Positions 3,720 to 57,997 of a stretch of DNA of 64,000 nucleotides are shown here, piece after piece. A program made the position numbers and the translations under genes. The stretch is taken from assembly GCA_022452035.1 (NCBI GenBank), contig JAKURV010000006.1, positions 1 to 64,000 on the forward strand, given 5' to 3'. A model generated the notes under the pieces. It had not been told where the DNA came from and ran no database searches. It saw only the letters and a list, made by a program, of their open reading frames with translations. Each line of letters opens with the position of its first letter. Positions within the stretch are counted from its first letter, which is position 1. The DNA is from Acidimicrobiales bacterium. GTDB lineage: Bacteria; Actinomycetota; Acidimicrobiia; Acidimicrobiales; MedAcidi-G1.

Positions 3720-4652
3720 ATGGACCGCCGGACCACGACGCTCCCCCCGGAGCTCCGCCTAACCCACCTCCGCCAACTTGAGGCCGAGGGCATCCACATC
3801 CTCCGCGAGGTAGTGGCCCAGTTTGAGCGGCCAGTGATGCTCTACTCCATCGGCAAGGACTCGTCGGTCCTGCTGCACCTAGCCCGCAAGGCGTTCTACC
3901 CCGGCCGGATCCCGTTCCCGCTCCTCCACGTCGACACCACGTGGAAGTTCCAGGAGATGATCGCTTTCCGGGACCGCATGGCCGACGAGCTCGGCTTCGA
4001 CCTGGTGGTCCACTCCAACCCTGAAGGGGTGGAGCAGGGGATCAACCCGTTCGACCACGGCTCGAAGAACTACACCGACATCATGAAAACCCAGGCCCTC
4101 CGACAGGCCTTAGACGCCGGCAGATACGACGCCGCATTCGGCGGGGCCCGCCGGGACGAGGAGAGGTCCCGGGCCAAGGAGCGGGTCTTCAGCTTTCGGG
4201 ACCGCAACCACCGCTGGGACCCGAAAAACCAACGACCCGAACTCTGGAACCTCTACAACGGCCGGGTCGACCGCGGTGAGAGCATCCGAGTCTTTCCGAT
4301 CAGCAACTGGACTGAACTCGACGTGTGGCAGTACATCCACCTCGAGGAGATCCCCATTGTCCCGCTGTACCGAGCAGCTATCCGACCAGTCGTAGAGCGG
4401 AACGGGACCCTGATCATGGTCGACGATGACCGCTTCCGATTCGCCGATGGCGAGGAGTTCCAAAAGAGGTCTGTGCGGTTTCGGACCTTGGGTTGCTACC
4501 CGCTGTCCGGGGCGGTCGAGTCAACAGCTACCACGTTGCCCGAGATCATCCAGGAGATGCTTCTGGCCACCCGATCGGAACGCGAGGGGCGAGTCATCGA
4601 CCACGACCAGGTCGGGTCGATGGAGGAGAAGAAGCGCGAGGGGTACTTCTGA
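3720..4652 (+). CDS. cysD: Sulfate adenylyltransferase subunit 2 (CysD)
   Basis: The 310-residue catalytic subunit of ATP sulfurylase, which makes adenosine 5'-phosphosulfate (APS) from ATP and sulfate. The PP-loop motif [13 protein letters not shown] lies near residues 42-54, and the conserved segments [11 protein letters not shown] and [17 protein letters not shown] follow. The C-terminus ends in the usual EKKREGYF. Length matches the family (about 300). It is the first gene of cysD-cysNC-cysC, and its stop overlaps the cysNC start as TGATG, so the two subunits are translationally coupled. No clear Shine-Dalgarno sequence lies at the right distance from the ATG; a few extra N-terminal residues before the conserved [10 protein letters not shown] leave the start slightly open. 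Confidence 0.96.
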
Positions 4653-6571
4653 TGCCTTACGACTCGGACCTCATCACCACCGACATCGACGCCTACCTGG
4701 CCGAACATGAGAACAAGGGCCTACTACGCCTTCTGACCTGTGGAAGTGTCGACGACGGCAAGTCGACCCTCATCGGTCGCCTGCTGCACGATTCCCAGTT
4801 GATCTACGAAGACCAGATGGCGGACCTGGAGGCCGACTCGGCAACTATGGGATCAGCCGGTGAACGTGTCGACCTGGCGTTGCTGATGGACGGCCTAAAG
4901 GCCGAGCGGGAGCAAGGCATCACCATCGACGTCGCCTACCGGTACTTCTCTACGTCACGTCGAAAGTTCATCATTGCCGATACCCCTGGCCACGAGCAGT
5001 ACACGCGAAACATGGTCACCGGAGCGTCGACTTGCGAGCTGGCGGTGGTCCTCGTCGACGCCCGGCACGGCGTAGTCGAACAGACCCGCCGGCACAGCTT
5101 CATTGTCAGCCTGCTGGGCATCAGAGACGTGGTGGTGGCCGTCAACAAGATGGACCTGGTGGGCTGGTCGGAGGAGGCCTTCGACGACATCCGGAACTGC
5201 TATCAGAAACTTGCCGCCGACCTCGATCTAGCCGACCCGTACTTCCTGCCCATGTCGGCCCTGCTGGGCGACAACGTGGTCGACACCGGGCACAACCTCA
5301 ACTGGTTCGACGGGCCTCCCCTAATGCAGTACTTGGAAACCGTTGACGTCGCCACCGGCGTGGACCTGAACCACCTACGCCTGCCCGTCCAGATGGTGCT
5401 GCGTCCCGACCAGGACTTCCGCGGTTTCGCAGGGACCGTAGCCTCCGGGGTGCTGCGCCCGGGCGACGAGGTGGTGGCGTTGCCGTCAGGTACGCGGTCC
5501 ACAGTGGAGCGAATTGTCACCTTCGACGGCGACCTCGAGGTGGCCGGTCCGGGACGGGCCGTGACGGTGACCCTGGCCGACGAGATCGACGTCAGCCGCG
5601 GCGACCTCTTAGTGGGCGGCGACGATTCACCCAACCGAGCACACGAGGTCGACGCCACCATTGTGTGGATGGACACCGAGCCAATGGAACCCGGCCGGCA
5701 GTACCTTCTGCGGTCGGCCACCGGTCAGAGCAATGCGTCGGTGACCTCCATCCGTCACCGGGTCGACGTCAATACGCTGGCCGAGCGGCCGGCAGCGGCC
5801 CTGGGGCTTAATGACATTGCCCGGTGCGCGATCAGTACCGACCGAGAGCTCCTGTTCGACCCGTATGACACGAATCGACGGACAGGATCGTTCGTACTAG
5901 TGGACCGGCTGTCCAATGCCACGGTGGGTGCCGGAATGGTCATTGAGGCCTCCTCCGGATGGGATCGGCAACCCGACGCTGGTCTTGTCCGACACGCATC
6001 GGAGATCTCCTCGGACGAGCGGTCGGCTCGCTTCGGCCAGCACCCCTGCACCGTCTTGCTGACAGGGCTCACAGCGGCTGGGAAGTCGACCATTGCCACC
6101 AGCCTGGAACGGCGACTCTTCGACCAGGGGAGGGCCACTATCCGTCTGGACGGCGAAAACGTACGCCTCGGCATCAGCCGGGATCTCGGGTTCAGCGCAC
6201 AAGAACGCTCTGAGAACCTTCGCCGGGTGGCCGAGGTGGCCCGCCTGGTCAACAACCAGGGCCTCATCGCTGTGGCGGCTCTCGTTGCACCTAAGGAGGA
6301 CATCCGGGCCCGGGCCCGGAACCTGATCGGGTCTGACCGGTTCGTTGAAGTGTTCGTGGATACCCCACTGGAGGTCTGTCGGGAACGCGACCCCCATGGC
6401 CTGTACGAGGCTGCCGAGAGAGGCGAGATCCCGCAGTTCCCCGGTGTATCGGCCACCTACGACCAGCCGACCGACATGGACCTTCGAGTCGATACCACGA
6501 CCCAGAGCGTGGACGACTGCGTGGACGCCATCCTGAGCCTGCTAAACGAACGGGGGTTTCTCCGTGGATGA
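4652..6571 (+). CDS. cysN: Bifunctional sulfate adenylyltransferase GTPase / APS kinase (CysNC)
   Basis: A 639-residue fusion. Residues 1-440 are the CysN GTPase, which drives APS formation by CysD: P-loop GSVDDGKST at 31-39, DTPGHEQY at 110-117, NKMD at 165-168, then EF-Tu-like beta-barrels. Residues from about 460 form an APS kinase domain that makes PAPS, with P-loop GLTAAGKS at 472-479 and LDGENVRLGI. I place the start at the ATG at 4652, overlapping the cysD stop, because the longer open frame from 4493 is only cysD sequence out of frame. The kinase part departs from canonical APS kinases: GLTAAGKS in place of GLSGSGKS, and APKEDIR where most carry SPYRADR. A second, canonical APS kinase gene follows directly, overlapping by 8 bases. 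Confidence 0.95.
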   Translation: MPYDSDLITTDIDAYLAEHENKGLLRLLTCGSVDDGKSTLIGRLLHDSQLIYEDQMADLEADSATMGSAGERVDLALLMDGLKAEREQGITIDVAYRYFSTSRRKFIIADTPGHEQYTRNMVTGASTCELAVVLVDARHGVVEQTRRHSFIVSLLGIRDVVVAVNKMDLVGWSEEAFDDIRNCYQKLAADLDLADPYFLPMSALLGDNVVDTGHNLNWFDGPPLMQYLETVDVATGVDLNHLRLPVQMVLRPDQDFRGFAGTVASGVLRPGDEVVALPSGTRSTVERIVTFDGDLEVAGPGRAVTVTLADEIDVSRGDLLVGGDDSPNRAHEVDATIVWMDTEPMEPGRQYLLRSATGQSNASVTSIRHRVDVNTLAERPAAALGLNDIARCAISTDRELLFDPYDTNRRTGSFVLVDRLSNATVGAGMVIEASSGWDRQPDAGLVRHASEISSDERSARFGQHPCTVLLTGLTAAGKSTIATSLERRLFDQGRATIRLDGENVRLGISRDLGFSAQERSENLRRVAEVARLVNNQGLIAVAALVAPKEDIRARARNLIGSDRFVEVFVDTPLEVCRERDPHGLYEAAERGEIPQFPGVSATYDQPTDMDLRVDTTTQSVDDCVDAILSLLNERGFLRG

Positions 6572-7151
6572 GCCGACAGCGACCAACATTGTCCGAGCCG
6601 AGGGGCTTGTGGGCCCCGTCGAGCGGTTTGCCGTCCTCGGCCAGGATGGCCACACGGTCTGGTTTACCGGGTTGTCCGGCTCAGGCAAGTCCACCCTGGC
6701 CTTCGCCCTGGAGGAGGCCCTCCTGACACGGGCAAGAGCGGCCTACGTTCTAGATGGCGACAATGTGCGCTTCGGGCTAAACCGTGACCTCGGCTTCTCG
6801 CCGGAGGACCGAACGGAGAATGTGCGGCGGATCGGCGAGGTTTGCCGGCTGTTCCAGGACGCCGGACTTATTGTTCTCACGGCATTCATCTCCCCCTACC
6901 GAGCCGACCGGAGCGCCGTCCGGGACCTCCACCCCGAAGGCGCCTTCACCGAGGTGTTCGTGGACACCCCACTGGAGGTGTGTGAGGAACGGGACGTCAA
7001 GGGCCTGTACGCCCGGGCCCGGGCCGGCGACATCACAGAGTTCAGTGGAATCTCGGCCCCCTACGAGCCGCCGGTCGACCCTGATGTCCGGATCGACACG
7101 TCCCGTCCGCTGGAGGAATGCGTGGCCATCCTCCTCGACCGCCTGACCTAA
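6564..7151 (+). CDS. cysC: Adenylyl-sulfate kinase (CysC)
   Basis: A 195-residue stand-alone APS kinase that phosphorylates APS at the 3' position to give PAPS. It shows the canonical P-loop GLSGSGKS at residues 36-43, LDGDNVRFGLNRDLGF, the substrate loop FISPYRADR, and the lid-region sequence VKGLYARARAGDI. Length is normal for CysC. The start is the GTG at 6564, inside the end of cysNC. Since the upstream protein already has an APS kinase domain, this gene is either the main enzyme beside a degenerate fused domain, or the two differ in role. PAPS feeds sulfate assimilation or sulfotransferases; neither PAPS reductase nor sulfotransferase is in the window. Confidence 0.95.
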   Translation: MDEPTATNIVRAEGLVGPVERFAVLGQDGHTVWFTGLSGSGKSTLAFALEEALLTRARAAYVLDGDNVRFGLNRDLGFSPEDRTENVRRIGEVCRLFQDAGLIVLTAFISPYRADRSAVRDLHPEGAFTEVFVDTPLEVCEERDVKGLYARARAGDITEFSGISAPYEPPVDPDVRIDTSRPLEECVAILLDRLT

Positions 7152-13168: not shown

Positions 13169-14089
13169 TTACGGGTTGGCGTGGAGGAACCGGCGAATGT
13201 TGTCCACCAGGACACCGGGCGCGTCCTCTTGACAGAAGTGACCCACTCCGGGCATCTCCACTACCGGGGCGTCGGGCCACAGGGCGCGGAAGTCGGCGAT
13301 GGCCCGGTCCGCTGGGATCGCCCCGTCCTCCATGCCCTCGAGGAGGATCGCCGGTTTCGCACACAGGTCGCCGATACCGACCGCCCCCGCGACCACGTAG
13401 TCCCGGATTCGGCCGAGGTAGGCATCGAGTGGGAATTCCAAGCCTCCGATAGCCGACTCCCGGTCCGGGAACGGGTCCGAGTAGGCCCGGATCCAGGTGT
13501 CGTCGACGGCCGCTGAGTTAGTGAAGCCAATGATCTTCATCACCGACAGAACGGTAGATCCAAGATTGAGTAGGACGTCCTCGGTGCGTCCCGACTCCAG
13601 CCCGCCACCGATCCACGTAAACCACCGGGACTCAGACATCGGTGTCACCGAGGCGTCGTCGACTCTCCCGTAGCCAGCCAGTGTGTTGGCGAACACAATT
13701 CGTTTGACCCGTTCGGGATGTCGCACCGTGTACGCCGTGGCAATAGGCCCACCCCAGTCCTGGCCTACGAACGTGATATCGGTCAGTCCCAGGTGCTCAA
13801 TCAGTGCAGCAAGGTTCTCCGTGTGGGCCCGCAGCGTGTACTCCCGGTCCTGCGGGGTCTCCGACTTCCCGAAGCCCATGTGATCGGGCACGACCACACG
13901 GTTGTCCTCGGCCAGCGGCCCGATCATGTGCCGGTACAGGTATCCCCAGGTCGGCTCGCCGTGCAGACAAACGATCGGCTCGCCATCGCGCGGGCCTTCG
14001 TCCACGAAGTGCTGGACAAAGCCGTGGCCGTCAAACGTGTGCGCAGCAAACGGGAACGACCCGTCGTAGGTCTCATCGAGGGGGACCAT
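13169..14089 (-). CDS. Haloalkane dehalogenase (HLD-I type)
   Basis: A 306-residue alpha/beta hydrolase predicted to replace a halogen on an alkyl carbon with hydroxyl. The nucleophile D111 lies in FVGQDWGG, and W112 right after it is the halide-binding tryptophan of haloalkane dehalogenases. The oxyanion-hole segment is CLHGEPTWGYLYR and the catalytic histidine H284 is in GVGHFCQED. HGEPTW and GQDWGG are hallmarks of the DhlA/DhmA subfamily HLD-I. Length is normal. Related epoxide hydrolases share the Asp nucleophile but not the GEPTW...QDWG combination. It is convergent with the oxygenase gene at 12199 and divergent from the Rieske gene at 14220. Confidence 0.85.
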   Translation of the reverse strand: MVPLDETYDGSFPFAAHTFDGHGFVQHFVDEGPRDGEPIVCLHGEPTWGYLYRHMIGPLAEDNRVVVPDHMGFGKSETPQDREYTLRAHTENLAALIEHLGLTDITFVGQDWGGPIATAYTVRHPERVKRIVFANTLAGYGRVDDASVTPMSESRWFTWIGGGLESGRTEDVLLNLGSTVLSVMKIIGFTNSAAVDDTWIRAYSDPFPDRESAIGGLEFPLDAYLGRIRDYVVAGAVGIGDLCAKPAILLEGMEDGAIPADRAIADFRALWPDAPVVEMPGVGHFCQEDAPGVLVDNIRRFLHANP

Positions 14090-14219: not shown

Positions 14220-15419
14220 GTGGAACGGGCCGAGCAGGTTGCCCAGATCAAGTTACTGATGTCCCGTCTCGACGCAGGGATGACCGTCGACGCTGGAGGA
14301 TTCCGTCGCAACCCGACGACCGTGTACGCGGATCCGGACCTAGCCGAACGAGAATGGCAGACGTTTTTCCGCGGGCACCCCCACCTTGTCGGCTTGACCG
14401 GCGACCTACCCGAGCCCGGCTCGTTCCTCACCTGTGAGTACCTACCAACGCCGGTCCTGGCCACCCGAGACGACGACGGCCGCTTTCGGGCGTTCGTGAA
14501 CGCCTGCCGCCACCGGGGTGTCGTGGTCGAGGAACGGGACCGGGGCGAAGCCCGCCGTTTCACCTGCCCGTTCCACCATTGGACGTACGACACCGAGGGA
14601 ACCCTGGTGGGTCTACCCAACCCCGAACACTTCGGGAACCCGGACCCCTCGTGCCTTGGCCTCATCGAGTTGCCGGCGGTTGAAGATGCCGGCCTCCTGT
14701 GGGTTCATCCCGACCCGGATGGCGCCATCGACCTCGACGAGCAGCTGGGTCACGATCTACGGGCCGAGCTGGCCTCGTGGCACCTCGACGAACTCTCCTA
14801 TCTGGGCTGGGATGACTACGACGTGGCCTGCAACTGGAAGTTGGCCATGGACACGTTTGGTGAGACGTACCACTTCCCGGCGTTGCACTCGCAGACCCTC
14901 AACCTGGGCTTCCATGGCAACGTCCAGTGCTACGACACCCACGGTCGGAACCACCGGATGTTGTTGTGCAAGCGTGACATCGACGGCCTACGCGACCTCC
15001 CCGAGGACGACTGGGAGATCACCACGGCGGCCTTGCCGGTCTACTGGCTATTTCCGAACGTTCAACTCATGCCATTTGCCGAAGGCCTGCATCTGGTGCG
15101 GGCCTACCCGGATCCGCGCGACCCAGGTAGGCACGTCAGCCGCATCACCTGGTACCTACGACCGGAGCCAGCGGCCGACACCGAGACCCGGAAGGCCCTA
15201 GAGATGATCTCGCAGCGATTCGGGGAGATCATCCGCGACGAGGACTATGTGGTGAGCGCCAGCCAGCAGCGCACCACCTCAGCTGGCGTACTTGACCACG
15301 TGGTCTTCGGACGCAACGAACCGGCGTTACACCACTACCACGAGACCTACCGGCGGATGCTTGGGATGGACCCGCTGCCACTGCTCGACGAGTTGGGTTT
15401 TGTCTCCGAGATTTCATGA
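14220..15419 (+). CDS. Rieske non-haem iron oxygenase, alpha subunit type
   Basis: About 399 residues, the catalytic subunit of an aromatic-ring-hydroxylating or related oxygenase. The Rieske [2Fe-2S] ligands are C96 and H98 in NACRHRG and C116 and H119 in CPFHHW. The mononuclear iron site follows with the two histidines of ETYHFPALH. The second Rieske loop reads CPFHHW in place of the usual CPYHGW. The start is uncertain: GTG at 14220 has a purine-rich stretch only two bases upstream, and the ATG at 14259 has none. Its stop overlaps the sulfatase start by 4 bases, so the two are made together, which suggests one substrate is both desulfated and oxidised. No reductase or beta subunit is adjacent. 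Confidence 0.83.
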   Translation: MERAEQVAQIKLLMSRLDAGMTVDAGGFRRNPTTVYADPDLAEREWQTFFRGHPHLVGLTGDLPEPGSFLTCEYLPTPVLATRDDDGRFRAFVNACRHRGVVVEERDRGEARRFTCPFHHWTYDTEGTLVGLPNPEHFGNPDPSCLGLIELPAVEDAGLLWVHPDPDGAIDLDEQLGHDLRAELASWHLDELSYLGWDDYDVACNWKLAMDTFGETYHFPALHSQTLNLGFHGNVQCYDTHGRNHRMLLCKRDIDGLRDLPEDDWEITTAALPVYWLFPNVQLMPFAEGLHLVRAYPDPRDPGRHVSRITWYLRPEPAADTETRKALEMISQRFGEIIRDEDYVVSASQQRTTSAGVLDHVVFGRNEPALHHYHETYRRMLGMDPLPLLDELGFVSEIS

Positions 15420-17689
15420 GGAGAACCGAACGTTTCGAGGGGCGCATCGGTCGAACCATTGCCGAGTCCGAGCCATGGTTCGATGAGCCGCCACACCCCG
15501 GAGAAGATGCCCCGGACGTCGTCGTGGTGCTACTTGATGACACCGGGTTCGCCCAACTGGGCTGCTACGGATCCGACATCGCCACGCCGCATATCGATGC
15601 TTTGGCAGGAGCCGGTCTGCGGTACACGAACTTCCATGTCACGCCACTGTGCTCGCCGACCCGGGCCTCACTGCTCACTGGGCGGAACCCCCATGCCGTG
15701 GGGATGCGGGCGGTCTCCAATTTCCAGACAGGCTTTCCCAACCAGAAGGCCCATATCTCCAACCACGCCGCGACCATGGCAGAGGTCCTGGGCGATGCCG
15801 GCTACGCCACCTTCTGTGTCGGGAAGTGGCACTTGGCGCCAATGGAGGAGTGTTCGGCGGCAGGACCATTCGACCAGTGGCCCTTGGCTCGCGGTTTTGA
15901 CCGCTTCTACGGCTTCCTAGAAGGCGAGACCGACCAGTTCCACCCGGAGTTGGTGTGCGACAACCACTGGATCGATTCGCCTGCTCGACCCAAGGGCGAC
16001 TACCACCTGTCCGAGGATCTGGTCGACCAGGCCCTCCTAATGATCGGCGACTCCGTCGGTGTGCGCCCAGACCGCCCGTTTTTCACCTACGTGGCCTTCG
16101 GAGCCACCCACGCCCCACACCAAGCCCCGACCGGTTATCTCGACCGCTATCGAGGACGCTTCGACGACGGGTGGGATGAAGCACGTCGACGGTGGTTTGC
16201 CCGACAGATCGAGATGGGCCTCCTCCCAGAGGGAACCCTGTTGTCGCCTCGCAATCCGGGGGTCGACGCGTGGGAGGACCTGACAGAGAACGGCCGGCGT
16301 CTAGCGGCTCGCCTCCAGGAGGCGTTTGCCGCGTTCCTAGAGCACACCGACGCACAAGTCGGCCGACTCGTTGAAGGCCTTCGACGACTAGGACGCCTCG
16401 ACAACACCATCCTGCTGGTCCTGACTGATAACGGAGCTTCCCAAGAGGGAGGACCCCACGGGATCCTCCATGAGATGAAGTACTTCAACGGCATCCTGGA
16501 GGACCCAGACGACGCTGTGGAACGGCTGGACGACATCGGAGGTCCGCGGAGCCACAGCAACTACCCGTGGGGGTGGGCCCAAGCCGGCAATACGCCGTTT
16601 CGCTGGTATAAGCAGAACACCCACGAGGGTGGCGTGCACGTCCCCCTCGTCGTGCACTGGCCCGCTGGCATCACTGACACCAACCAGGGCGGACTCCGCG
16701 ACCAGTTCGCCTTCGTGGCCGACGTAGCCCCGACCATCTACGACCTGGTGGGCGCGACGGTCCCGGAAGTGCACCGTGGGATCGACCAGCTCCCGGTTAC
16801 AGGGCGGTCATTCGCAGGGACCATCAGCGATCCGGCAGCGCCGGCCGTCAACGACTGTCAGGTTTTCGAGAATGCGGGGAGCAGGGCACTAGTGGCCGAT
16901 GGCTGGAAGGCCGTGGTCCGAAATCCACCAGAGAGCCCCGTCGACCCCGACGACACCTCGGCCTGGGAGCTATACGACCTGAACGCCGACCCGTCGGAAT
17001 GCCAGAACCTGGCAGAAGACCAGCCTGATCGTCTAGCCGACATGGTGGCCCGGTGGTGGCACGAGGCCGCCTCCGGTGGAGTTCTCCCAGTGGACCACCG
17101 GATGGCTTCACTATTCGGTCCGCGCTTTCGCGACCAATCTCCTCACCCAACAAACCGACGGTACGTATACCGACCACCCATGTCGCCGCTCCCGGGCCAG
17201 GCCTCGGCCCCGATCGGAGGACGAAGCTTTGACCTGGAGGCCAGACTCGTGGCGGACGCCACTGATGAGGGAGTCATCTACGCCACCGGAACGGAAAACG
17301 CCGGGATCTCCTTGTTCGTCCAAAACGGCAAACTGGTTCTCGACTACAACGCCTTCGGCGATCACGTCCTCTTGGAGTCCGATCTCGAAGTGCCCGTCGG
17401 GGAAGTTCTCCTCGGGGCGCGACTACGTCGGCTAGACGAAAGAGCAGGGTCAGCGACCGTAGTGGTGGACGGCGTCGACGCCGGCCAGACCGACCTACCG
17501 TTGTACATGCGGATGATCTCATCGATTGGCCCCAGCATCGGCTTCGACCACGGGTCGGCCGTCTCGGACCGCTACCGGGCGCCGTACGCCTTCACTGGCA
17601 CCCTCCACGAAGTAGTGATCCAGATCAGCCCCGACCGCTTCGGCGATGTACGAGACGTCACAGCCCGGGCCGAGATGAACCGGCAGTGA
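15416..17689 (+). CDS. Arylsulfatase-type sulfatase, long form (copy 1)
   Basis: A 757-residue formylglycine sulfatase that hydrolyses sulfate esters. D41 and D42 in VVLLDDTGF bind calcium, C79 in LCSPTRASLLTGR is the residue converted to formylglycine, and GKWHLAP supplies further active-site residues. From about residue 570 a beta-rich C-terminal domain (SFDLEARL to the end) adds a concanavalin-like module, giving the long architecture of mycobacterial AtsA/AtsD. There is no signal peptide, so it probably acts in the cytosol. Translationally coupled to the Rieske gene. It is a clear paralogue of the protein at 24329, with C79 at the same position. The modifying enzyme (FGE) is not in the window. 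Confidence 0.93.
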   Translation: MRRTERFEGRIGRTIAESEPWFDEPPHPGEDAPDVVVVLLDDTGFAQLGCYGSDIATPHIDALAGAGLRYTNFHVTPLCSPTRASLLTGRNPHAVGMRAVSNFQTGFPNQKAHISNHAATMAEVLGDAGYATFCVGKWHLAPMEECSAAGPFDQWPLARGFDRFYGFLEGETDQFHPELVCDNHWIDSPARPKGDYHLSEDLVDQALLMIGDSVGVRPDRPFFTYVAFGATHAPHQAPTGYLDRYRGRFDDGWDEARRRWFARQIEMGLLPEGTLLSPRNPGVDAWEDLTENGRRLAARLQEAFAAFLEHTDAQVGRLVEGLRRLGRLDNTILLVLTDNGASQEGGPHGILHEMKYFNGILEDPDDAVERLDDIGGPRSHSNYPWGWAQAGNTPFRWYKQNTHEGGVHVPLVVHWPAGITDTNQGGLRDQFAFVADVAPTIYDLVGATVPEVHRGIDQLPVTGRSFAGTISDPAAPAVNDCQVFENAGSRALVADGWKAVVRNPPESPVDPDDTSAWELYDLNADPSECQNLAEDQPDRLADMVARWWHEAASGGVLPVDHRMASLFGPRFRDQSPHPTNRRYVYRPPMSPLPGQASAPIGGRSFDLEARLVADATDEGVIYATGTENAGISLFVQNGKLVLDYNAFGDHVLLESDLEVPVGEVLLGARLRRLDERAGSATVVVDGVDAGQTDLPLYMRMISSIGPSIGFDHGSAVSDRYRAPYAFTGTLHEVVIQISPDRFGDVRDVTARAEMNRQ

Positions 17690-17742: not shown

Positions 17743-18654
17743 ATGGACGTGATCCGTACACCGGACGACCGGTTCGATGACATGCCCGACTTCAGCTTCG
17801 CACCCCACTACGCCGAGGTGGACGACGGCGACGGCGGGACACTCCGAATGCATTACCTCGACGAGGGACCACCGGACTCGCCACCCGTACTTCTGATCCA
17901 TGGCGAGCCGTCATGGTGCTTCCTGTACCGAAAGATGATCCCCGTGCTTGTAGAAGCGGGGCACAGGGTTGTGGCACCGGACCTGGTGGGTTTCGGACGC
18001 AGCGACAAACCGACCGAGCAGACGGACTACACGTACGCCCGGCATGTGGCTTGGACCTCGACCCTGATCTTCGACCACCTCGACCTGAGAGAAGCGACCT
18101 TCTTCGGTCAGGACTGGGGCGGCCTAATCGGCCTGCGGCTAGTCGCGGCACAGCCGGACCGGTTTGCACGCGTGGTAATCGGGAACACCGGCTTACCCAC
18201 CGGACACGGACCGGCTAGCGACGCCTTCCTTAAGTGGCAGCATTTCTCCCAGACCACCCCCGTCTTCCCTGTCGGAACACTGGTGAAACGGGCGTGCGTG
18301 AATCCCCTGACCGACGACGTGGTCGCCGCCTACGACGCCCCGTTCCCGGACGATTCGTTCAAGGCCGGAGCGCGGATATTTCCGGCGTTGGTGCCGACGA
18401 GTCCAGAGGACCCAGAGTCGTCAGCGAACCAGCAGGCCTGGCGGAGCCTCGAACTGTATGACCGCCCGTTTCTTTGCGCTTTCAGTGATTCGGATCCGGT
18501 AACCGCCGGGGGCGACGCCCCGTTCCTGGCAAAGGTGCCGGGCGCCCAAGGCCGCGAGCACCCCACAATGGTTGGGGGCGGCCACTTTCTCCAAGAAGAC
18601 CTCGGTCCCGAACTAGCAGCCAAGATCCGGGACTTCATCACCGATACAGCCTGA
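17743..18654 (+). CDS. Haloalkane dehalogenase (HLD-I type), second copy
   Basis: A 303-residue alpha/beta hydrolase with the HLD-I marks: LIHGEPSWCFLYRKM, nucleophile D124 followed by halide-binding W125 in FFGQDWGGLIG, and H281 in GGGHFLQED. It is more canonical than the copy at 13169: the cap-domain sequence and the run VVAPDLVGFGRSDKP match marine DhmA-type enzymes closely. GAGGAG lies eight bases before the ATG. It sits between a sulfatase and a DUF1330-like gene on the plus strand. The upstream 53 bases are locally AT-rich and could hold an internal promoter. Confidence 0.92.
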   Translation: MDVIRTPDDRFDDMPDFSFAPHYAEVDDGDGGTLRMHYLDEGPPDSPPVLLIHGEPSWCFLYRKMIPVLVEAGHRVVAPDLVGFGRSDKPTEQTDYTYARHVAWTSTLIFDHLDLREATFFGQDWGGLIGLRLVAAQPDRFARVVIGNTGLPTGHGPASDAFLKWQHFSQTTPVFPVGTLVKRACVNPLTDDVVAAYDAPFPDDSFKAGARIFPALVPTSPEDPESSANQQAWRSLELYDRPFLCAFSDSDPVTAGGDAPFLAKVPGAQGREHPTMVGGGHFLQEDLGPELAAKIRDFITDTA

Positions 18655-18730: not shown

Positions 18731-19606
18731 ATGAGCGGCGAACGGCTCGGATACGGCACCGTAGATACTGACTACGGAATGCGCCTCGCTACAACACCTC
18801 GTAGCGAAGACGGGCCGATCTGGATGGTCAACCTCATGGCCTACCGGAAGGTTGCCGACTACGGCGTCGGTAACGCTTCGGGAATAGATCCAGAGAACGG
18901 TGGCACGGTGTCCGGCCGGGAAGCCGACGACCGCTACGCCCCACTAGACGTCCTGGCCGACATCGGTGCTGACGTGGTGTTCATAGGCGACGTTGAGGAC
19001 CAACTCTTAGGCGACGAACCACGATGGGACCGGGTGGGCGTCGTCCGCTACCCGACCCGGCGGTCGTTTATCGAGATGCAGCAACGGGAGGACTTCCAGA
19101 AAAAGCATGTCCACAAAGAGGCCGGAATGGCCGAGACAATCGTGGCCGGGTGCCTCCCGCTAGAAATACCGCCATTGCTTGGCGACAGGGATCCAGTGGA
19201 CTGGGCAGACGTGCCCCACCCGCCGTCCGACGCAGACGGTTCGGTCATGGTGGTCCACGTGCTGCGCTTCAGCGATGGCGTTGGAACCCAATCGCCGACC
19301 GACATGGAGACCTATACCAACCATGCTGCCCAGGTCGCGGTCCCAAATGGTGTCCGCCTCGCGGGATGGTTCGCCGTCGAGGGCACGATCATCGGCGATG
19401 GACGGACCTGGGACCAGGTCCGTTTCAACGCCTTTCCGAGCCGGGCCGCGTTCCGGGCCGTGGTTATGGATCCCGACCGTCTGTCTGCCCAACGAGAACA
19501 TCGGGAGGCGGCCATCGCCGATACATACACACTCGTCGTACGACCAACGATTGATCGAATCGCCGAGTCGCTTCGAGACGAGGCAGTCACCCGCCCAGCT
19601 TCCTGA
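18731..19606 (+). CDS. Duplicated DUF1330-like (dimeric alpha/beta-barrel) protein
   Basis: A 291-residue protein that appears to contain two copies of a ferredoxin-like domain. The first half has WMVNLMAYRKVADYG, a strand VVFIGDV and WDRVGVVRYPTRRSFIEM; the second has VMVVHVLRFSD, a strand on LAGWFAVEGTIIGD and WDQVRFNAFPSRAAFRAV. WDxVxxxxxPxRxxF, repeated in both halves, is the DUF1330 signature. Such domains occur in small proteins of uncertain function related to NIPSNAP and antibiotic-biosynthesis monooxygenases. The duplication would make a pseudo-dimer in one chain. No enzymatic role can be assigned. Confidence 0.6.
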   Translation: MSGERLGYGTVDTDYGMRLATTPRSEDGPIWMVNLMAYRKVADYGVGNASGIDPENGGTVSGREADDRYAPLDVLADIGADVVFIGDVEDQLLGDEPRWDRVGVVRYPTRRSFIEMQQREDFQKKHVHKEAGMAETIVAGCLPLEIPPLLGDRDPVDWADVPHPPSDADGSVMVVHVLRFSDGVGTQSPTDMETYTNHAAQVAVPNGVRLAGWFAVEGTIIGDGRTWDQVRFNAFPSRAAFRAVVMDPDRLSAQREHREAAIADTYTLVVRPTIDRIAESLRDEAVTRPAS

Positions 19607-19620
19607 GAGGACCAACCTTC

Positions 19621-20415
19621 GTGTCTCAGAGCTTCCATCAGGTCGATGCCTTCACCGACCAGCCGTTTCAGGGGAACCCGGCAGCCGTGCTCGTGCTCGA
19701 CGAACCGGCAGATCCGGCCTGGATGCAGTCGGTAGCTCTGGAAATGAATCTGTCGGAGACGGCGTTTTGTCACCCGTCGTCCCGAGCCGGCGAGGAATGG
19801 GACCTTCGCTGGTTCACGCCGAAAGCCGAAGTAGACCTATGCGGCCACGCCACGCTGGCCACCGCCCACGTCCTGGTTGAGGAGCACGGAGTAGACGGTG
19901 AGATCGGTTTCCACACGAGGTCCGGCCGGCTGACGGCCACGTCCGTGGCCAGAGGGATACGCCTCGACTTCCCGGTGGACGCAGTCAACGTCCTATCGGT
20001 GTCAGCGAATATGTCTGAGGCCCTCGGCCTTCCAGTAGTTGACGCGGGAATGGGCGCTACCGACCTCGTTCTGGAGGTCGGCACAGCGGCCGACGTTCGC
20101 GGCTGTGACCCTGACCTGCGCCTGATAGCCGGCCTAGCGGACCGTGGGGTGGTGGTCACCGCCCAGTGCGACGACCGTGACGACATCGACATCGTCTCAC
20201 GGGTCTTCGCTCCGAACGTCGGGATCCCCGAAGACCCGGTGACCGGATCGGCCCACACCACACTGGCGGCCTGGTGGGCGCCCCGTCTCGGTCCGGAGCT
20301 TCGTGCCGAACAGGCGTCAGTCCGTGGTGGCGAACTGGACGTCCGTCTGGTTGGCGAACGCGTACACCTCACCGGCTGTGCCGTGACGGTGGCCCGTGGG
20401 ATGCTCCTCACATGA
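19621..20415 (+). CDS. PhzF family isomerase
   Basis: A 264-residue protein of the PhzF/diaminopimelate-epimerase-like fold. The family signature is present: VDAFTDQPFQGNPAAV at the N-terminus, the catalytic glutamate in NLSETAF near residue 47, and RWFTPKAEVDLCGHATLA. The second-half motif GIPEDPVTGSAHTTLA is also intact. PhzF itself isomerises dihydro-hydroxyanthranilate, but most members act on unknown metabolites. There is no other phenazine gene here, so phenazine synthesis is not implied. GTG start at 19621, 14 bases after the previous gene. Confidence 0.88.
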   Translation: MSQSFHQVDAFTDQPFQGNPAAVLVLDEPADPAWMQSVALEMNLSETAFCHPSSRAGEEWDLRWFTPKAEVDLCGHATLATAHVLVEEHGVDGEIGFHTRSGRLTATSVARGIRLDFPVDAVNVLSVSANMSEALGLPVVDAGMGATDLVLEVGTAADVRGCDPDLRLIAGLADRGVVVTAQCDDRDDIDIVSRVFAPNVGIPEDPVTGSAHTTLAAWWAPRLGPELRAEQASVRGGELDVRLVGERVHLTGCAVTVARGMLLT

Positions 20416-24328: not shown

Positions 24329-26629
24329 ATGGATCACCCGACCACTGATGGCCCAATCATCGGACGCACCACCAGCGAGTCCACACCCTGGTGGCCCGAG
24401 CCGGTCCTGCCGGCCACCGGCACGCCCAACGTGATCGTCGTCCTGCTGGACGACACCGGTTTCGCCCACCTGGGTTGTTACGGAGGATCGGTCGACACCC
24501 CCAACTATGACCGCCTAGCCGCCCGGGGCCTTCGCTACACAAACTTTCACACCACGGCACTCTGCTCGCCGACTCGCGCCTGTCTCCTAACGGGTCGCAA
24601 CCACCACTCGGTGGGCATGCGGGCCCTGTCCAACTTCGATACTGGCTTCCCCAATATGCGCGGTCGGATCGCCCGATCGGCGGGCACGCTGGCTGAGATT
24701 CTCCGCGAGGACGGTTTCGCTACGTGGGCCATCGGCAAATGGCACCTCACCCCAATGCGAGAAGCCTCTGCTGTCGGCCCGTTCGGAGACTGGCCGCTCC
24801 AGCGGGGATTCGACCGGTACTACGGATTCATGCAGGGCGAGACCGACCAGTTCCACCCGGAGCTCTACGAGGACAACCGCCTAGTCGACGTCCCCCGAAC
24901 CCCCGCGGAGGGTTACCACGTCACAGAAGACCTGGTCGACCACGCAATCGACCTGGTCCGGACCCAACACACAATGGTTCCGGAACGTCCGTTTTTTTTG
25001 TACCTGGCCTTTGGCGCTACCCACGCCCCTCACCAGGCACCGGACACCTACCTCGAGAAGTGGCGGGGCCGCTTCGACGAGGGGTGGGACGTAGTCCGTC
25101 AACAGGTTTACGAACGGCAACTGGACATGGGAGTGGTCCCACCCGGGACGGAGCTCGCCCCCCGCAACCCAGGGGTGGAGGCATGGGAGGACCTCTCGGC
25201 AGACGAACGTAACGTGGCCTGCCGGCTCCAGGAGGCCTTCGCCGCCATGCTGGACCACACCGATGCTCAACTAGGGCGACTGCTGGACTCGCTGGACGAG
25301 TTGGGCATTGCCGACGACACCATGATTGTGGCCCTCAGCGACAACGGGGCGTCCCAAGAGGGTCGAGCACACGGGGTTCTGGACACGTTCCGGCACTTCA
25401 ACGGAATCGATCAACCCCTCGACGAGGCGATGGACCGGCTGGACGCCATCGGAACCCGGACGTCTAACACCAACTACCCGTGGGGGTGGGCCCAGGTGGG
25501 CAACACCCCCGGCAAGCGCTACAAGCAGAACACTCACGGAGGCGGCGTTCGCGACCCTCTGATCGTCTCGTGGCCCAACGGCATCGACCAGGAAGCCTCG
25601 GGGGGAATCCGTACCCAGTTTCACCATGTGATCGACATGGCTCCGACGATCCTCGAGCTGGTCGGTTCAACATTGCCCGACGAGATTGGAGGCGTGGCCC
25701 AGCAGCCAATCGAGGGGACCAGCCTGGCCTACACCTTCGACATAAAAGCCGAGGATGCCGGCGCCGTCCCCACACGGAAGAAGACCCAGTACTTCGAGAT
25801 GCAGGGACACCGGGCACTCTGGTACGACGGATGGAAGGCCGTGGCCTACCACCGATACGGCACCTCCTTAGACGACGACGTCTGGGAGCTATACCACCTC
25901 GACGAGGACTTCTCGGAGTGCCGCGACTTGGCCGATGCCCAACCCGAACGACTGGCTGGGATGGTGGACCGGTTCTGGGAGGAGGCTGAACGCTACGACG
26001 TGCTTCCCATCATGGATGACGCCGGAAACCTTGCCGGGACGGGAAGGCTGTTCGCCGGCCACTCCACACCCGGAACACCAAGAAACCGAGACAAATTCAC
26101 CTACCTCCCACCCACGCCGCGCGTTCCTCCGGACGCGGGCCCCGCCCTCGGCTCGCGGAACTGGACAATGCGCTTCGATGTGGAGCGGCCCGACGGCGAA
26201 GACGTCGGAGTTCTCCTTGCCGTCGGAACAGTGAACAATGGGCTAGTGGCCTACGTCGACCGGCAGGGACACCTCGTCTACGACCACAACGCGTACGGCA
26301 ACCACACGGTGCTTCGATCCCCGTCACCGGTTCCAACCGGCCGTTCCGTCCTAGAGGTCCACCAGGACCGCGTGCGACAAGGTCCCGGACGGGCTCGCCT
26401 GTTGGTCGATGGGACACTGGTCGGCGAGGAGAGCATCCCCGAGATACCCACCATGATCTCGCCCGTGGGGCTTGACGTGGGCCGAAACCCGACTGGGGTC
26501 AGCCCTGACTACGAGCCACCCTTCGCGTTCCGGGGCCGGATTCACCGCGTGGACATTGCTACCCGACGGGCCTTCCGGAAGGAAGATGAGGCGGCAATCG
26601 AGTTGGCGGCCGCCGAGCGGATGCAGTGA
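24329..26629 (+). CDS. Arylsulfatase-type sulfatase, long form (copy 2)
   Basis: A 766-residue formylglycine sulfatase parallel to the one at 15416 across its length. D41 and D42 in VVLLDDTGF, C79 in LCSPTRACLLTGR and GKWHLTP form the active site. Both copies share the segments GETDQFHPEL and NTNYPWGWAQVGNTP or its near equivalent, and the concanavalin-like C-terminal domain. No signal peptide is seen. The next gene starts seven bases after its stop, so it is cotranscribed with the M20 hydrolase and thioesterase genes. Copy 2 has an extra linker before the C-terminal module. The substrate is unknown. Confidence 0.93.
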   Translation: MDHPTTDGPIIGRTTSESTPWWPEPVLPATGTPNVIVVLLDDTGFAHLGCYGGSVDTPNYDRLAARGLRYTNFHTTALCSPTRACLLTGRNHHSVGMRALSNFDTGFPNMRGRIARSAGTLAEILREDGFATWAIGKWHLTPMREASAVGPFGDWPLQRGFDRYYGFMQGETDQFHPELYEDNRLVDVPRTPAEGYHVTEDLVDHAIDLVRTQHTMVPERPFFLYLAFGATHAPHQAPDTYLEKWRGRFDEGWDVVRQQVYERQLDMGVVPPGTELAPRNPGVEAWEDLSADERNVACRLQEAFAAMLDHTDAQLGRLLDSLDELGIADDTMIVALSDNGASQEGRAHGVLDTFRHFNGIDQPLDEAMDRLDAIGTRTSNTNYPWGWAQVGNTPGKRYKQNTHGGGVRDPLIVSWPNGIDQEASGGIRTQFHHVIDMAPTILELVGSTLPDEIGGVAQQPIEGTSLAYTFDIKAEDAGAVPTRKKTQYFEMQGHRALWYDGWKAVAYHRYGTSLDDDVWELYHLDEDFSECRDLADAQPERLAGMVDRFWEEAERYDVLPIMDDAGNLAGTGRLFAGHSTPGTPRNRDKFTYLPPTPRVPPDAGPALGSRNWTMRFDVERPDGEDVGVLLAVGTVNNGLVAYVDRQGHLVYDHNAYGNHTVLRSPSPVPTGRSVLEVHQDRVRQGPGRARLLVDGTLVGEESIPEIPTMISPVGLDVGRNPTGVSPDYEPPFAFRGRIHRVDIATRRAFRKEDEAAIELAAAERMQ

Positions 26630-31605: not shown

Positions 31606-32364
31606 TCACAGTGAGGCCCAGAAGCCCACGAGCAGGTCAGCGGCCTCGTCGGGACGCTCCATCATCCACCAGTGGCCAGCACCATCCATCGGAGCGTGCC
31701 AGGCACCCAGGCGGTCGGCCATTTCGGCGGCCCGACCCGGCGGCCCTACATAGGGGTCCTCGGTCGGGTCCAAGGCCAGCCCGGGTGGGAGGTCGGTGGC
31801 GGCCAGGATCTTGCCCAACTCGATCATTGCCGGCTGGGCGCCCGACCGGTAGAGCGGGAGGATGCAGTCGGTCATGGCCTCGAGTGCGTCGGCCATGTCC
31901 GCGGCCGCCGCCTTGGTTACGCCGTTGGTGCCCATGTTGGCAATCCAGTCCTCGCGTGACACGGCACCCATCCCGTCCAGTACCTGCTCACCAACGTCGG
32001 GGGTTTGCCAGAGTTGGGCTAGGTCGTGCCACTGGTAGTCGGGGTGTACAAGGCCCGTGCAGTCACACGCCCACGAGTGGACGAGGTCAGGTCGGGTAGC
32101 CAGGACGCCAAACACGTGGCCGGCCCCCCAGTCATGGCCAACCAGGTCGACCGGGTTGCCACCGGAGGTCAGATCCTCCAGCTCGGCGATCAGCCAGTCT
32201 CGGTATTCGAGCTGGGTGGCTCCCCACCCGTCCGGTATTGATGCGCCGAACCCGGGTGGCGAAAGCAGCACCAGGTCAGTGACGCTGCGGTCGGTGAGCT
32301 CGCAGACCAAGTCAGTCCAGATGGCATCAGTTTCCGGGTTGCCGTGGATCAGGACAGTGGTCAT
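31606..32364 (-). CDS. Alpha/beta hydrolase with Asp nucleophile
   Basis: A 252-residue alpha/beta hydrolase. The nucleophile elbow is GHDWGAG, so the nucleophile is aspartate as in epoxide hydrolases and haloalkane dehalogenases, and the histidine lies in GAGHWWMMERP. TTVLIHGNP forms the oxyanion hole. It lacks the GEPTW motif of the two HLD-I proteins, so epoxide or ester hydrolysis or dehalogenation are all possible. The start is ATG at 32364, with GGAGG seven bases upstream; the open frame extends ten residues further to 32394 but without a site. Confidence 0.78.
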   Translation of the reverse strand: MTTVLIHGNPETDAIWTDLVCELTDRSVTDLVLLSPPGFGASIPDGWGATQLEYRDWLIAELEDLTSGGNPVDLVGHDWGAGHVFGVLATRPDLVHSWACDCTGLVHPDYQWHDLAQLWQTPDVGEQVLDGMGAVSREDWIANMGTNGVTKAAAADMADALEAMTDCILPLYRSGAQPAMIELGKILAATDLPPGLALDPTEDPYVGPPGRAAEMADRLGAWHAPMDGAGHWWMMERPDEAADLLVGFWASL

Positions 32365-32390
32365 GCGGTTTCCTCCATTTCCGGCAGGGG

Positions 32391-33827
32391 TCAACCCCGT
32401 TCGGTCAGGTCGTATTCGGCCATGAAGTATGGGGTGTCAGGGTCGTAGGAGGTAAGGGTGACGGGATCAGCTACCTGACCCACCGGGCGGACGTCGGAGC
32501 CAAGGGTGTTTGAGGCGTCGTCGCCAAGTTCGTCCCTGGCCTCCTCGACGAGGGCTAAGAGCTCGGCAACCACAGCGGGGTTTTCCTCGACCACGTCGTT
32601 TCGCTCGCCGATATCCGTCTCCAGGTCATAGAGCCGCACCCGTTCCACGTTCCACTTCCGGACATGAAGCTTCCAGCGGCCTTTTCTCACGGCCTCCACG
32701 TTGCCGCCAAGGATGTAGAAGAACGGGGCCTCGGGCGGAGCGTCGCCGCCCTCCAGGAGGGTGCTGATGTCTCGCCCGTCCAGAGTCCGGTCGCCAGGGA
32801 CGTCGACGCCACACCACCCCGCGATTGTGGGATAGAGGTCCATGGCGTTGACGACCTCGGGGACCGTCTGCCCAGCCGGGACTCTTCCCGGCCACCGGAC
32901 GATGCACGGAACCCTCTGACCGCCCTCCCACGTTGTGCCCTTTGCGGCCCGGAGCGCGCCGTTGCTTCCACCGCCGTCGCGAATCAGGGCACCGTTGTCA
33001 CTGGTGAAGACGACCACCGTGTCCTCGTCCAGGCCCAGAGCTCGGATCTCGGCAAGGAGTGCCCCGGTTGACCAATCAATACATTGCACCGCCGCCCCGT
33101 AACGGCCATTAGTTGACTGTCGGACGAAGCGATCCCGGACGTAGATCGGCAGGTGCACGTAGAGGTGTGCCAGGTAGAGGAAGAACGGCCGGTTCCGATT
33201 AGAGCGTAGGAACTCCACCGCGTCGGCAACGTATGCCTCGGTAAGGGCAGCCTGGTCGGGCTGCTCGGCTACTACGTCGTCGTCCCGCATAAGAGGAAGG
33301 GGCGGGCGGTTAGCCAGCATCGGGGCGTCGTTGGGCACCGGTGTTCCTAGTTGCTCCATGATGTCGCGGTAGGACTGCCCCTCGGGCGGTAAGGCCTGCC
33401 GACCCATGTCGTTGCTGTAGGGGAGGCCAAACCATCCGTCGAAACCATGGCGGGTAGGCAGGAACTCCGGTTGGTCTCCGCAGTGCCACTTTCCGACCAG
33501 CCGGGTGGCATACCCAGCGTCGCTGAGGAGCCGGGCGATGGTGATCTCGTCAGGGTGCAGCCCCTGAGCCTGGCCGGGGAACAAGACGGGAGCGTTGTCG
33601 ATGCTCCGCCCACCGAAGCCAACCCGGAGCGGATAACTACCGGTAAGCATCGCGGCCCGTGACGGCGAGCAGACCGGTGACGCCATGTAGAAGTCGGTGA
33701 GGCGGGCCCCTTCAGAGGCCATGCAGTCCAGGGTCGGGGTCTCATGCTGAGTTGAGCCGTAGCACGACAGGTCGCCGTAACCCAGATCGTCGCAGTTGAT
33801 GAGGATGACGTTCGGTCGTCGACTCAT
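32391..33827 (-). CDS. Sulfatase (copy 3, short form)
   Basis: A 478-residue formylglycine sulfatase. NCDDLGYGDLSCYG carries the calcium-binding aspartates, C53 in VCSPSRAAMLTG is the formylglycine site, and GKWHCG continues the active site. Unlike the copies at 15416 and 24329 it ends without the concanavalin-like module and belongs to the arylsulfatase A-like branch. No signal peptide is evident. It heads a minus-strand operon with hydrolase, alcohol dehydrogenase, SDR and enoyl-CoA hydratase genes. ATG at 33827 has GAAGGG about six bases before it. Confidence 0.92.
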   Translation of the reverse strand: MSRRPNVILINCDDLGYGDLSCYGSTQHETPTLDCMASEGARLTDFYMASPVCSPSRAAMLTGSYPLRVGFGGRSIDNAPVLFPGQAQGLHPDEITIARLLSDAGYATRLVGKWHCGDQPEFLPTRHGFDGWFGLPYSNDMGRQALPPEGQSYRDIMEQLGTPVPNDAPMLANRPPLPLMRDDDVVAEQPDQAALTEAYVADAVEFLRSNRNRPFFLYLAHLYVHLPIYVRDRFVRQSTNGRYGAAVQCIDWSTGALLAEIRALGLDEDTVVVFTSDNGALIRDGGGSNGALRAAKGTTWEGGQRVPCIVRWPGRVPAGQTVPEVVNAMDLYPTIAGWCGVDVPGDRTLDGRDISTLLEGGDAPPEAPFFYILGGNVEAVRKGRWKLHVRKWNVERVRLYDLETDIGERNDVVEENPAVVAELLALVEEARDELGDDASNTLGSDVRPVGQVADPVTLTSYDPDTPYFMAEYDLTERG

Positions 33828-33936
33828 GGCTGGCCCTTCAGTCACCGTGATCATCCTGCGTGGGGCAGCAGTCTGCCGAAGCGGGCCCGGGGACCGGACC
33901 CGGTCTGGGGGTCAGACCGAGACTACGGTCCGCTCC

Positions 33937-46331: not shown

Positions 46332-46943
46332 TCAGTGTCCGTGCAGTTCCCAGCCGTGGGGGACCGACAGCCCGAATTCGGTGCAGGCGTCCGCCACGGC
46401 GATGAACAGGAACTTTCCGAACGAGCGTTCGCAGCCAATGAGAAACGATGTCTGGCCACCCTCGTCGTCGCGAACCAGGTCACAACTGACGTTCCCAACC
46501 GATGCCGAGAACACGGCACCGTCTGGGGTGAGTTCATTGGACAGGTCCAGGTTGCAGATCTTGTTCAGGGCTGCTGTGGCGTTTGAGCCACTGATTCGCA
46601 GCATGGCTCGACCGTGGGTTATGTCGATGACGGTGACGAATCCCTCCCCGGGCTCTCCCTGGAAGTGACCGAACACCTCGGAGAGGGCTGCTGTGATGGC
46701 CGACGCCTGTCCAGACCCGGCATAGATAGTCCACTCATCGGGACGGGTTCCGCATACGAGGGCACCGTCGGTACGTCGCTGGCTACTCCCATAGCCCACG
46801 CCTAGCTCTGCTGCCGCCCCCGTACCGGCACCGCCCCGAACCTGGACCTTGGTAGTTGAGGCAGCATCGGCCACGGTGACACTCCCGTCTGGAGCGCTCA
46901 AGGGACCGACGTCTACCGGGCTGTTGAAGGTGGTCTCAGACAC
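46332..46943 (-). CDS. soxG: Sarcosine oxidase gamma subunit (SoxG)
   Basis: About 203 residues, the gamma subunit of heterotetrameric sarcosine oxidase. It follows soxA, which fixes the assignment. VCGTRPDEWTIYAG, VIDITHGRAMLRISG and CERSFGKFL match the gamma/GcvT-like fold, with FLIG and HGWELH near the end. I place the start at GTG 46943, which has AAGGAG nine bases before it and overlaps soxA by 8 bases; the ATG at 46970 would give nine more residues. It stabilises the complex rather than catalyse. Confidence 0.85.
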   Translation of the reverse strand: MSETTFNSPVDVGPLSAPDGSVTVADAASTTKVQVRGGAGTGAAAELGVGYGSSQRRTDGALVCGTRPDEWTIYAGSGQASAITAALSEVFGHFQGEPGEGFVTVIDITHGRAMLRISGSNATAALNKICNLDLSNELTPDGAVFSASVGNVSCDLVRDDEGGQTSFLIGCERSFGKFLFIAVADACTEFGLSVPHGWELHGH

Positions 46944-49788: not shown

Positions 49789-50033
49789 GACGCCTCCTGG
49801 CCGCGGATCTCGTTGGTCGCGGTGTTGCGCTCAATGGTGAAGTATCGACGGCAGCCTCCCCGGCAGTACCAGGTCTCGGTCACCCAGCCAGCAGGGTTCT
49901 TCCGCATGTACAGGTATTCGCGCCACTCGACCAGAGAAGCCGTCGAGGGGTCGGGGCGGGGAACGAGCTCTCCGCAGTTCCGTAGATCGCCCGAGTTCCG
50001 GGGACCACAGTTCGGGCAAGGTACGACAATCAT
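49785..50033 (-). CDS. soxD: Sarcosine oxidase delta subunit (SoxD)
   Basis: An 82-residue small subunit carrying a zinc site. Cysteines C6 and C9 (CPNCGPRN), C20, C57 and C61 (WYCRGGC) are candidates for the metal; SoxD of other bacteria uses three cysteines and a histidine, so this site appears to have a cysteine at the fourth position. It sits between soxB and soxA with a 1-base overlap upstream and 4-base overlap downstream, the normal soxBDAG order. Its role is structural. Confidence 0.92.
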   Translation of the reverse strand: MIVVPCPNCGPRNSGDLRNCGELVPRPDPSTASLVEWREYLYMRKNPAGWVTETWYCRGGCRRYFTIERNTATNEIRGQEAS

Positions 50034-51322: not shown

Positions 51323-51325
51323 GGG

Positions 51326-52600: not shown

Positions 52601-52633
52601 GGGCGCGTACGCCCCCGTACCGGAGAGGGGGCG

Positions 52634-52667
52634 GTGAAAAGGTAGGGCTGGTTTCACTCCGTGTAAA
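52634..52667. promoter_or_regulatory. Candidate LysR operator between Rieske and LysR genes
   Basis: The 89-base divergent gap contains GTGAAA (52634-52639), TTTCAC (52652-52657) and GTGTAAA (52661-52667). GTGAAA and TTTCAC are exact inverted copies, and TTTCACTCCGTGTAAA is a second, imperfect dyad with a T-N11-A core, the usual binding site of LysR regulators. It is well placed to control both the LysR gene and the Rieske-soxBDAG transcript. Confidence 0.5.
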
Positions 52668-52689
52668 GGATGTGTACTCTCATGGGGGT

Positions 52690-57562: not shown

Positions 57563-57997
57563 ATGGGAGACCGCAGGGTTGACGTCAGGCGTGAGGCGGT
57601 AATCCCCGCCGACCCGGACGTCGTCTGGGCCATCGTGGCTGCTGCCGAACGCCAGGCCGAGTGGTTCCCCGGGATGGTGACGTCGACCGTCAAAGACGAC
57701 GTCCGCACCGTCGTCGCGGCTTCCGGGGCCATCTTCCTGGAGAAAATTCTGTCCATCGACGACGACACCCGGTGTTTCGAGTACCGAATCACCGGCCCCC
57801 TCCAACTCGACCACCACCGAGGGCGCATAACCGTGCAAGACGACCCCGGAGGGGCAAGGGTCGTCTACGAACAAGAACTCGAACCCAAAGCGTTGGCCTA
57901 CGTCCTGGACGGTGCTCTCGGCGATGCTCTGGTCGGCCTACGGGATCTCGTAACCGACGGGCAGACGTCCCGGGCCTATCAGGACGGTGGTGCCTGA
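57563..57997 (+). CDS. SRPBCC family (polyketide cyclase-like) protein
   Basis: A 144-residue lipid- or ligand-binding START-like fold: VRREAVIPADPDVVWAIVAAAERQAEWFPGMV opening, strands around TVVAASGAIFLEKILSIDD and RVVYEQELEP, and a long C-terminal helix. This family binds small hydrophobic ligands. Its stop overlaps the sulfatase start as TGATG, so the sulfatase and this protein are coupled; it may present a hydrophobic substrate. ATG start at 57563. Confidence 0.82.
   Translation: MGDRRVDVRREAVIPADPDVVWAIVAAAERQAEWFPGMVTSTVKDDVRTVVAASGAIFLEKILSIDDDTRCFEYRITGPLQLDHHRGRITVQDDPGGARVVYEQELEPKALAYVLDGALGDALVGLRDLVTDGQTSRAYQDGGA

Follow-up and report, generated by a model that had tools for sequence, protein, structure and literature searches.

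In the 64,000-nucleotide stretch of Acidimicrobiales DNA analysed here (termed the window), the gene of a Rieske oxygenase α-subunit (14220-15419, + strand) and that of an S1 sulfatase (15416-17689, + strand) share a stop/start overlap of four bases, ATGA at 15416-15419. Catalytic residues are kept in both proteins, and the overlap reported by the first-pass annotation is real. Each of the two genes adds a member to a family that is already known. The overlap itself is a local, lineage-specific event common to the window and one near-identical relative; a loose link between sulfatases and this clade of Rieske oxygenases nevertheless remains, judging from their gene neighbourhoods. We tentatively favour, at slightly below an even chance, a reading in which a cytosolic Rieske oxygenase and a sulfatase serve the same variable cluster of catabolic genes, with a sulfated amine as a conceivable substrate; that the two enzymes share a sulfated substrate, such as an amine of this kind, is possible.

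The Rieske protein comprises 399 residues, encoded from a GTG start at 14220 to a TGA stop at 15417-15419. The mechanical open reading frame begins upstream at 14109; the start at 14220 agrees with the relatives, of which nine of 12 aligned rows (bounded from tblastn matches) have methionine in that column, the remaining three opening later, one of them at a contig end. Two loops of the Rieske cluster, C96-x-H98 and C116-P-F-H119, together with matches to PF00355 (58.1 bits) and PF00848 (117.7 bits), each above the Pfam cut-off, assign the protein to the Rieske α-subunits. Alignment of 54 rows revealed that C96, H98, C116, H119, H218, H223 and D340-E341-D342 are invariant; the two histidines H218 and H223 and one of the candidate acids D340, E341 or D342 make up the two-His-one-carboxylate pattern of a mononuclear iron site. 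Residue 215 is glutamate in all 54 rows, and the spacing E215-x2-H218-x4-H223 equals that of E205, H208 and H213 in CntA, where PMC7948474 describes E205 as the bridging residue joining the two iron centres. The protein therefore carries the bridging-glutamate pattern E-x2-H-x4-H that is documented for CntA, a candidate mark of the CntA/GbcA/Stc2 type. By contrast, the second loop CPFHHW, which had been singled out as unusual, is uninformative and was rejected as a functional mark, because the column of H120 varies widely among the 54 rows (N in 13, S in 13, R in 12, A in 11, G in three and H in two). The named relatives, among the best 80 of 441 matching loci, are mainly MAGs of Acidimicrobiales and other actinobacteria, many of them marine-named, the remainder including some Chloroflexi, Proteobacteria and Deltaproteobacteria. 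A match of 98% identity bears the name ALOHA_A2.5_66, and the host is probably a marine actinobacterium.

The sulfatase gene starts with ATG and encodes 757 residues, with a C-S-P-T-R formylglycine motif and a PF00884 match of 210 bits, above the Pfam cut-off. Among solved structures, the nearest in sequence is the bacterial arylsulfatase 4cxk/1hdh, presumably from Pseudomonas aeruginosa, with which an end-to-end alignment covers residues 32-557. The DD, x-S-P-T-R, K-x-H, DN and K positions of that enzyme, which we take to be catalytic, are all kept, and one FGE gene was found in the genome; together with PF00884 and the C-x-P-x-R motif, these features define an S1 formylglycine sulfatase. No signal peptide was seen by eye. 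Compared to 1hdh/4cxk, the window sulfatase has about 200 extra C-terminal residues. The C-terminal 203 residues (from about 580) are predicted to form a β-sandwich (pLDDT 80.6), the model of which is nearest to laminin-G and CBM40 domains, with a Z-score of 14.6 and 2.7 Å over 144 residues. This fold is frequent among glycan-binding proteins, and the domain thus argues slightly against a small-amine substrate. The scores against the choline-sulfatase model TIGR03417 (86.9 bits, cut-off 433) and the arylsulfatase model NF010322 (130 bits, cut-off 481) are low. In total, the genome (2.18 Mb in 65 contigs) has eight sulfatases, four of which lie within the window.

Structural comparison of the Rieske model (pLDDT 90.5) using VIA-align placed CntA (6zgp_H) at the top, with a Z-score of 34.0 and 2.4 Å over 332 residues; the quaternary-ammonium demethylase 3vca gave a Z-score of 33.0 (2.7 Å over 335 residues) and the stachydrine demethylase 4quq 32.4. 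The likeness to CntA and the stachydrine demethylase extends to the Rieske ligands and the His-His-acid ligands and, for CntA, to a bridging glutamate three residues ahead of the first histidine. However, the sequence identity is only 18-19%, and the window protein has Phe213 where CntA, by spacing, has the ammonium-binding Tyr203. Aromatic oxygenases also fit the model almost equally well, with salicylate 5-hydroxylase (Z 32.5) and terephthalate dioxygenase (Z 31.7) close to CntA, and Foldseek, ordered by E-value, lists terephthalate dioxygenase first and CntA eighth. The first-pass annotation had suggested desulfation plus oxidation of a sulfated aromatic, sterol or amine; in its aromatic or sterol version, an arylsulfatase would act together with a ring-hydroxylating dioxygenase. 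The Foldseek order would agree with that version, as would the arylsulfatase nearest to the sulfatase and the best sequence matches of the Rieske protein, which are biphenyl and phthalate dioxygenases. Nevertheless, we consider ring oxidation of this kind very unlikely: the genome has no β-subunit (PF00866) above the cut-off, with one weak match at 21.3 of 27 bits, which fits an α3 enzyme; the quaternary-ammonium monooxygenases come first by VIA-align, albeit narrowly; and glutamate occupies the bridging place. Moreover, all NCBIfam equivalog models listed score far below their cut-offs for the Rieske protein as for the sulfatase, including GbcA (NF058607, 85.9 bits against a cut-off of 670), and the naming of a substrate from such models was rejected. 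No match for the Rieske protein was found in PHROGs, and the library scans returned no close characterised relative of its clade. Overall, the model would place the protein near the α3 quaternary-ammonium monooxygenases, not clearly separate from the aromatic oxygenases, and fold and bridging glutamate lean towards an amine substrate by a small margin over the aromatic oxygenases.

An overlap of this sort had been taken to tie the two gene products to one process, with conservation in close relatives as the check, and on that check the argument failed. Among the 15 homologous loci in which the Rieske stop could be read (the window included), the overlap is present in two, the window and L077, in genome G007, and these are 98% identical; two more loci, G045 and G028, break off inside the Rieske gene. 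Likewise, among the best 80 of 441 loci, a sulfatase reaches into the end of the Rieske gene only in L111, which belongs to the G007 genome. In three genomes of the same genus whose Rieske proteins are 81-82% identical (G012, G005 and G001:C26), a dehalogenase-like hydrolase gene stands directly 3' of the Rieske gene, sharing one base with its stop (TGATG) in G012 and opening nine bases past it in G005 and G001:C26; in G036, too, this hydrolase is the next gene found after the Rieske gene. The overlap was therefore rejected as evidence of a conserved, translationally coupled operon. A purine-rich ribosome site was not seen just 5' of the sulfatase ATG, a GGAG falling 3' of it, and sulfatase translation in the window may thus rely on coupling.

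The four relatives with the hydrolase next to the Rieske gene could instead have decayed from an older Rieske-sulfatase-hydrolase order present in the family ancestor, which would be compatible with the other readings discussed here. In G028, of another genus, a 218-residue sulfatase C-terminus lies directly 5' of the same hydrolase, indicating that the gene order may predate the overlap; by score, the best matches of this piece are, narrowly, the sulfatases of G007 and the window (64%). However, the G028 Rieske gene runs off the end of a separate contig, leaving the Rieske-sulfatase junction outside the available sequence, and in G036, which belongs to the genus of G028, no sulfatase separates the Rieske gene from the hydrolase after it. 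We regard an ancestral order as rather unlikely.

Comparison among relatives revealed a variable cassette inside a catabolic region that is kept across the genus. The cassette consists of the Rieske oxygenase, the sulfatase, a haloalkane-dehalogenase-family α/β-hydrolase (17743-18654, + strand; NF002043, 468 bits against a cut-off of 265) and a 291-residue protein (18731-19606, + strand) for which neither Pfam nor NCBIfam gave a match at E 0.001. Its left border is a second dehalogenase-like α/β-hydrolase, which is divergent (13169-14089, - strand), and its right border is a gene that is PhzF-like by eye (19621-20415, + strand). The hydrolase at 17743-18654 is the homologue of that directly following the Rieske gene in G012, G005, G036 and G001:C26, so that the window sulfatase stands between two genes that are direct neighbours in four relatives. 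In G001:C9, G002:C74, G010 and G016 (L195, L196, L197 and L199), merely 220-244 bases separate the divergent hydrolase from the PhzF-like gene, and the Rieske oxygenase, the first sulfatase, the other hydrolase and the 291-residue protein are all absent from this gap. G006 has the hydrolase and the 291-residue protein without the Rieske oxygenase and the first sulfatase, and G008 and G009 have the hydrolase alone. Within the reach of the stretches, both flanks are conserved, with OYE, PhyH, EutA-like, M24 and 2OG oxygenase genes on one side and FGGY kinase, fatty-acid hydroxylase, sulfatase 2 and M20 genes on the other. Counting the window genome, a Rieske match at E ≤ 1e-60 occurs in six out of 17 genomes of the genus and in 13 out of 48 of the family. 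Base composition gives no sign of recent import: the GC contents of the Rieske gene (63.7%) and the sulfatase gene (63.8%) are within the range of eight other genes (62.4-66.1%).

Several of these features would also suit a sulfatase that is a mere bystander, brought next to the Rieske gene when a catabolic region rich in sulfatases was locally rearranged, with unrelated substrates for the two enzymes and the overlap reflecting compact packing. Half of the sulfatases of the genome lie in the window, the overlap is not conserved, and overlaps of four bases are not unusual in the window, occurring in five of the 37 same-strand neighbour pairs of our own gene list, in which some starts were picked by eye and longer overlaps may reflect wrong starts; one of them joins another sulfatase (32391-33854) to the gene at 31606-32394. 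Sulfatase 2 (24329-26629, + strand), an S1 sulfatase 51-52% identical to the first, is found at the same place in genus mates whether the Rieske gene is present or absent. On the other side, a sulfatase lies within the cluster in all seven relatives that keep it (G000, G007, G012, G005, G036, G001 and G028, those of G001 and G028 being read from split contigs); this counts for little, because G012 has only the genus-conserved sulfatase 2.

The relatives of the window sulfatase provide a further point in favour of a bystander, as they adjoin an MBL-fold hydrolase instead, located 5' or 3', in 11 of 14 stretches (the exceptions being L097, L105 and L110). In those 11 stretches, no Rieske match was found at E 1e-12. 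The MBL-fold hydrolase belongs to PF12706; its best solved relative is the arylsulfatase 8gyg, and its best NCBIfam model, under the cut-off, is ribonuclease Z. The window has no gene for such a hydrolase; the closest protein in the genome, on another contig, is 52% identical, and the closest in G007 only 38%. In the sulfatase tree, the window and G007 sequences are sister (100/99) to a clade of 22 rows that includes G005 and the MBL-linked sulfatases. The G005 sulfatase is therefore not the vertical counterpart of that in the window, and, with the G005 cluster holding a sulfatase from a different branch, related sulfatases have entered the cluster more than once.

Against a bystander, S1 sulfatases are found repeatedly, in separate lineages, close to members of this Rieske clade. 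A sulfatase is present in 12 of the 80 loci (the best 80 of 441), compared to 1.3 expected at the order-wide density (397 PF00884 matches in 311 Mb of 99 genomes) and 3.8 at the density of this genome; the loci have unequal flanks of at most 8 kb per side, 1.03 Mb in total, and were screened by our own HMM built from 38 sulfatases at E 1e-8, a different yardstick from the PF00884 counts behind the densities. The 12 loci fall into seven groups: L111, L112, L121, L133, L157, L173 and a set of six related loci (L139, L140, L141, L155, L166 and L176). The six groups besides L111 are not unusual at this genome's density (Poisson P 0.17 at 3.7). In the Rieske tree, the sulfatase label needs five changes, gains and losses pooled, and well-supported branches force four of them; its 54 rows are the window, L090 and 52 of the 80 loci, covering eight of the 12 sulfatase-bearing loci and leaving out L140 (in-frame stop), L161 and 26 others. 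Two loci have a different sulfatase as the direct neighbour of the Rieske gene: in L121, it carries C-S-P-S-R and its end lies about 75 bases 5' of the Rieske gene, and in L133, from Chloroflexota, a sulfatase with C-S-P-T-R is the divergent neighbour. Our own arithmetic, at an assumed density of about 1000 genes per Mb, gives 0.2 expected direct adjacencies. Conversely, 12 of 16 fetched Rieske stretches, several of them short, have no match to any sulfatase of the window. Taken together, the proposal that sulfatase and oxygenase belong to one process survives in part: the overlap itself is not conserved, whereas the recurrence in 12 of 80 loci, the at least four forced changes and the direct adjacency in L121 and L133 speak for it indirectly. 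The bystander reading strikes us as somewhat less likely than the favoured one.

The same genus has a further pair of this general kind. In G012 (L093), a choline-sulfatase-like gene is followed by a GbcA-like Rieske gene, and G009 (L094) has a sulfatase remnant, an open frame of 124 residues. As in the window, a sulfatase gene adjoins a Rieske gene on the same strand; however, the sulfatase is another one, scoring 235 of the 433 bits needed in the choline-sulfatase model, its Rieske protein is only 28% identical to that of the window, and the sulfatase comes first.

In the favoured reading of one variable catabolic cluster, both enzymes would be active in the cytosol. The Rieske protein would be an α3 monooxygenase of the CntA/Stc2 sort that N-dealkylates or hydroxylates an amine or a similar small polar compound. 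The sulfatase would act either ahead of the oxygenation step or behind it, stripping sulfate off a compound handled by the same catabolic cluster, be it a substrate or an intermediate, and the ATGA overlap would hold the expression of the two in step. More broadly, and unlikely in our estimate, this bridging-glutamate and probably α3 Rieske clade, found for the most part in Acidimicrobiales but also in Chloroflexota, might repeatedly and independently recruit S1 sulfatases, often together with an MBL-fold hydrolase, giving interchangeable desulfate/oxygenate cassettes whose targets would be amines or other metabolites that carry sulfate, with the ATGA pair as the tightest case.

A search of the literature at the level of titles and abstract openings found no Rieske-sulfatase gene pair, which we do not extend to a claim of absence from print, as papers such as PMC12487129 hold both words. 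The locus offers a worked case in which a single overlap in a single genome is weak evidence for shared function. The recurring association with sulfatases gives a lead that can be tested as to how sulfated dissolved organic matter may be used by actinobacteria that are uncultured and largely marine.

The window holds four of the genome's eight S1 sulfatase genes, with three further ones (positions 24329-26629, 32391-33854 and 57661-59547) besides sulfatase 1, which overlaps the Rieske oxygenase gene. Sulfatase 2 (24329-26629) and sulfatase 3 are both present in seven of the eight stretches from the same genus (L192-L199) and lie several kb apart; the sequence of the eighth, L195, stops short of sulfatase 3. 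The C-terminal domain of sulfatase 1 (17078-17686) is predicted to adopt a laminin-G/CBM40-like fold, so the ligand of this protein may be bulkier than a simple sulfate ester.

Elsewhere, an S1 sulfatase gene pairs with that of an MBL-fold hydrolase in a two-gene unit that recurs in other stretches (L079:6326-9449, L100, L107, L108, L139, L141 and L155), possibly combining two unrelated sulfatase kinds within one operon. The genus also has a second sulfatase-Rieske pair, unrelated to the main one, in which a choline-sulfatase-like gene is followed by a GbcA-like Rieske gene (L093:5059-7657 and L094:4380-5912); the choline-sulfatase-like copy in L094 is a shortened remnant. In the window, a GbcA-like Rieske gene (51326-52717; 176 bits versus the cut-off of 670) adjoins sarcosine/dimethylglycine oxidase-like genes, named by eye (46332-52717 in all), which suggests that methylamine catabolism is encoded nearby.

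Immediately upstream of the window's catabolic region lie cysD-, cysNC- and cysC-like genes of sulfate activation (3720-7151), also named by eye, and in L195 two of them likewise adjoin the OYE gene. Such sulfate-activation-like genes near several sulfatases make a curious combination.
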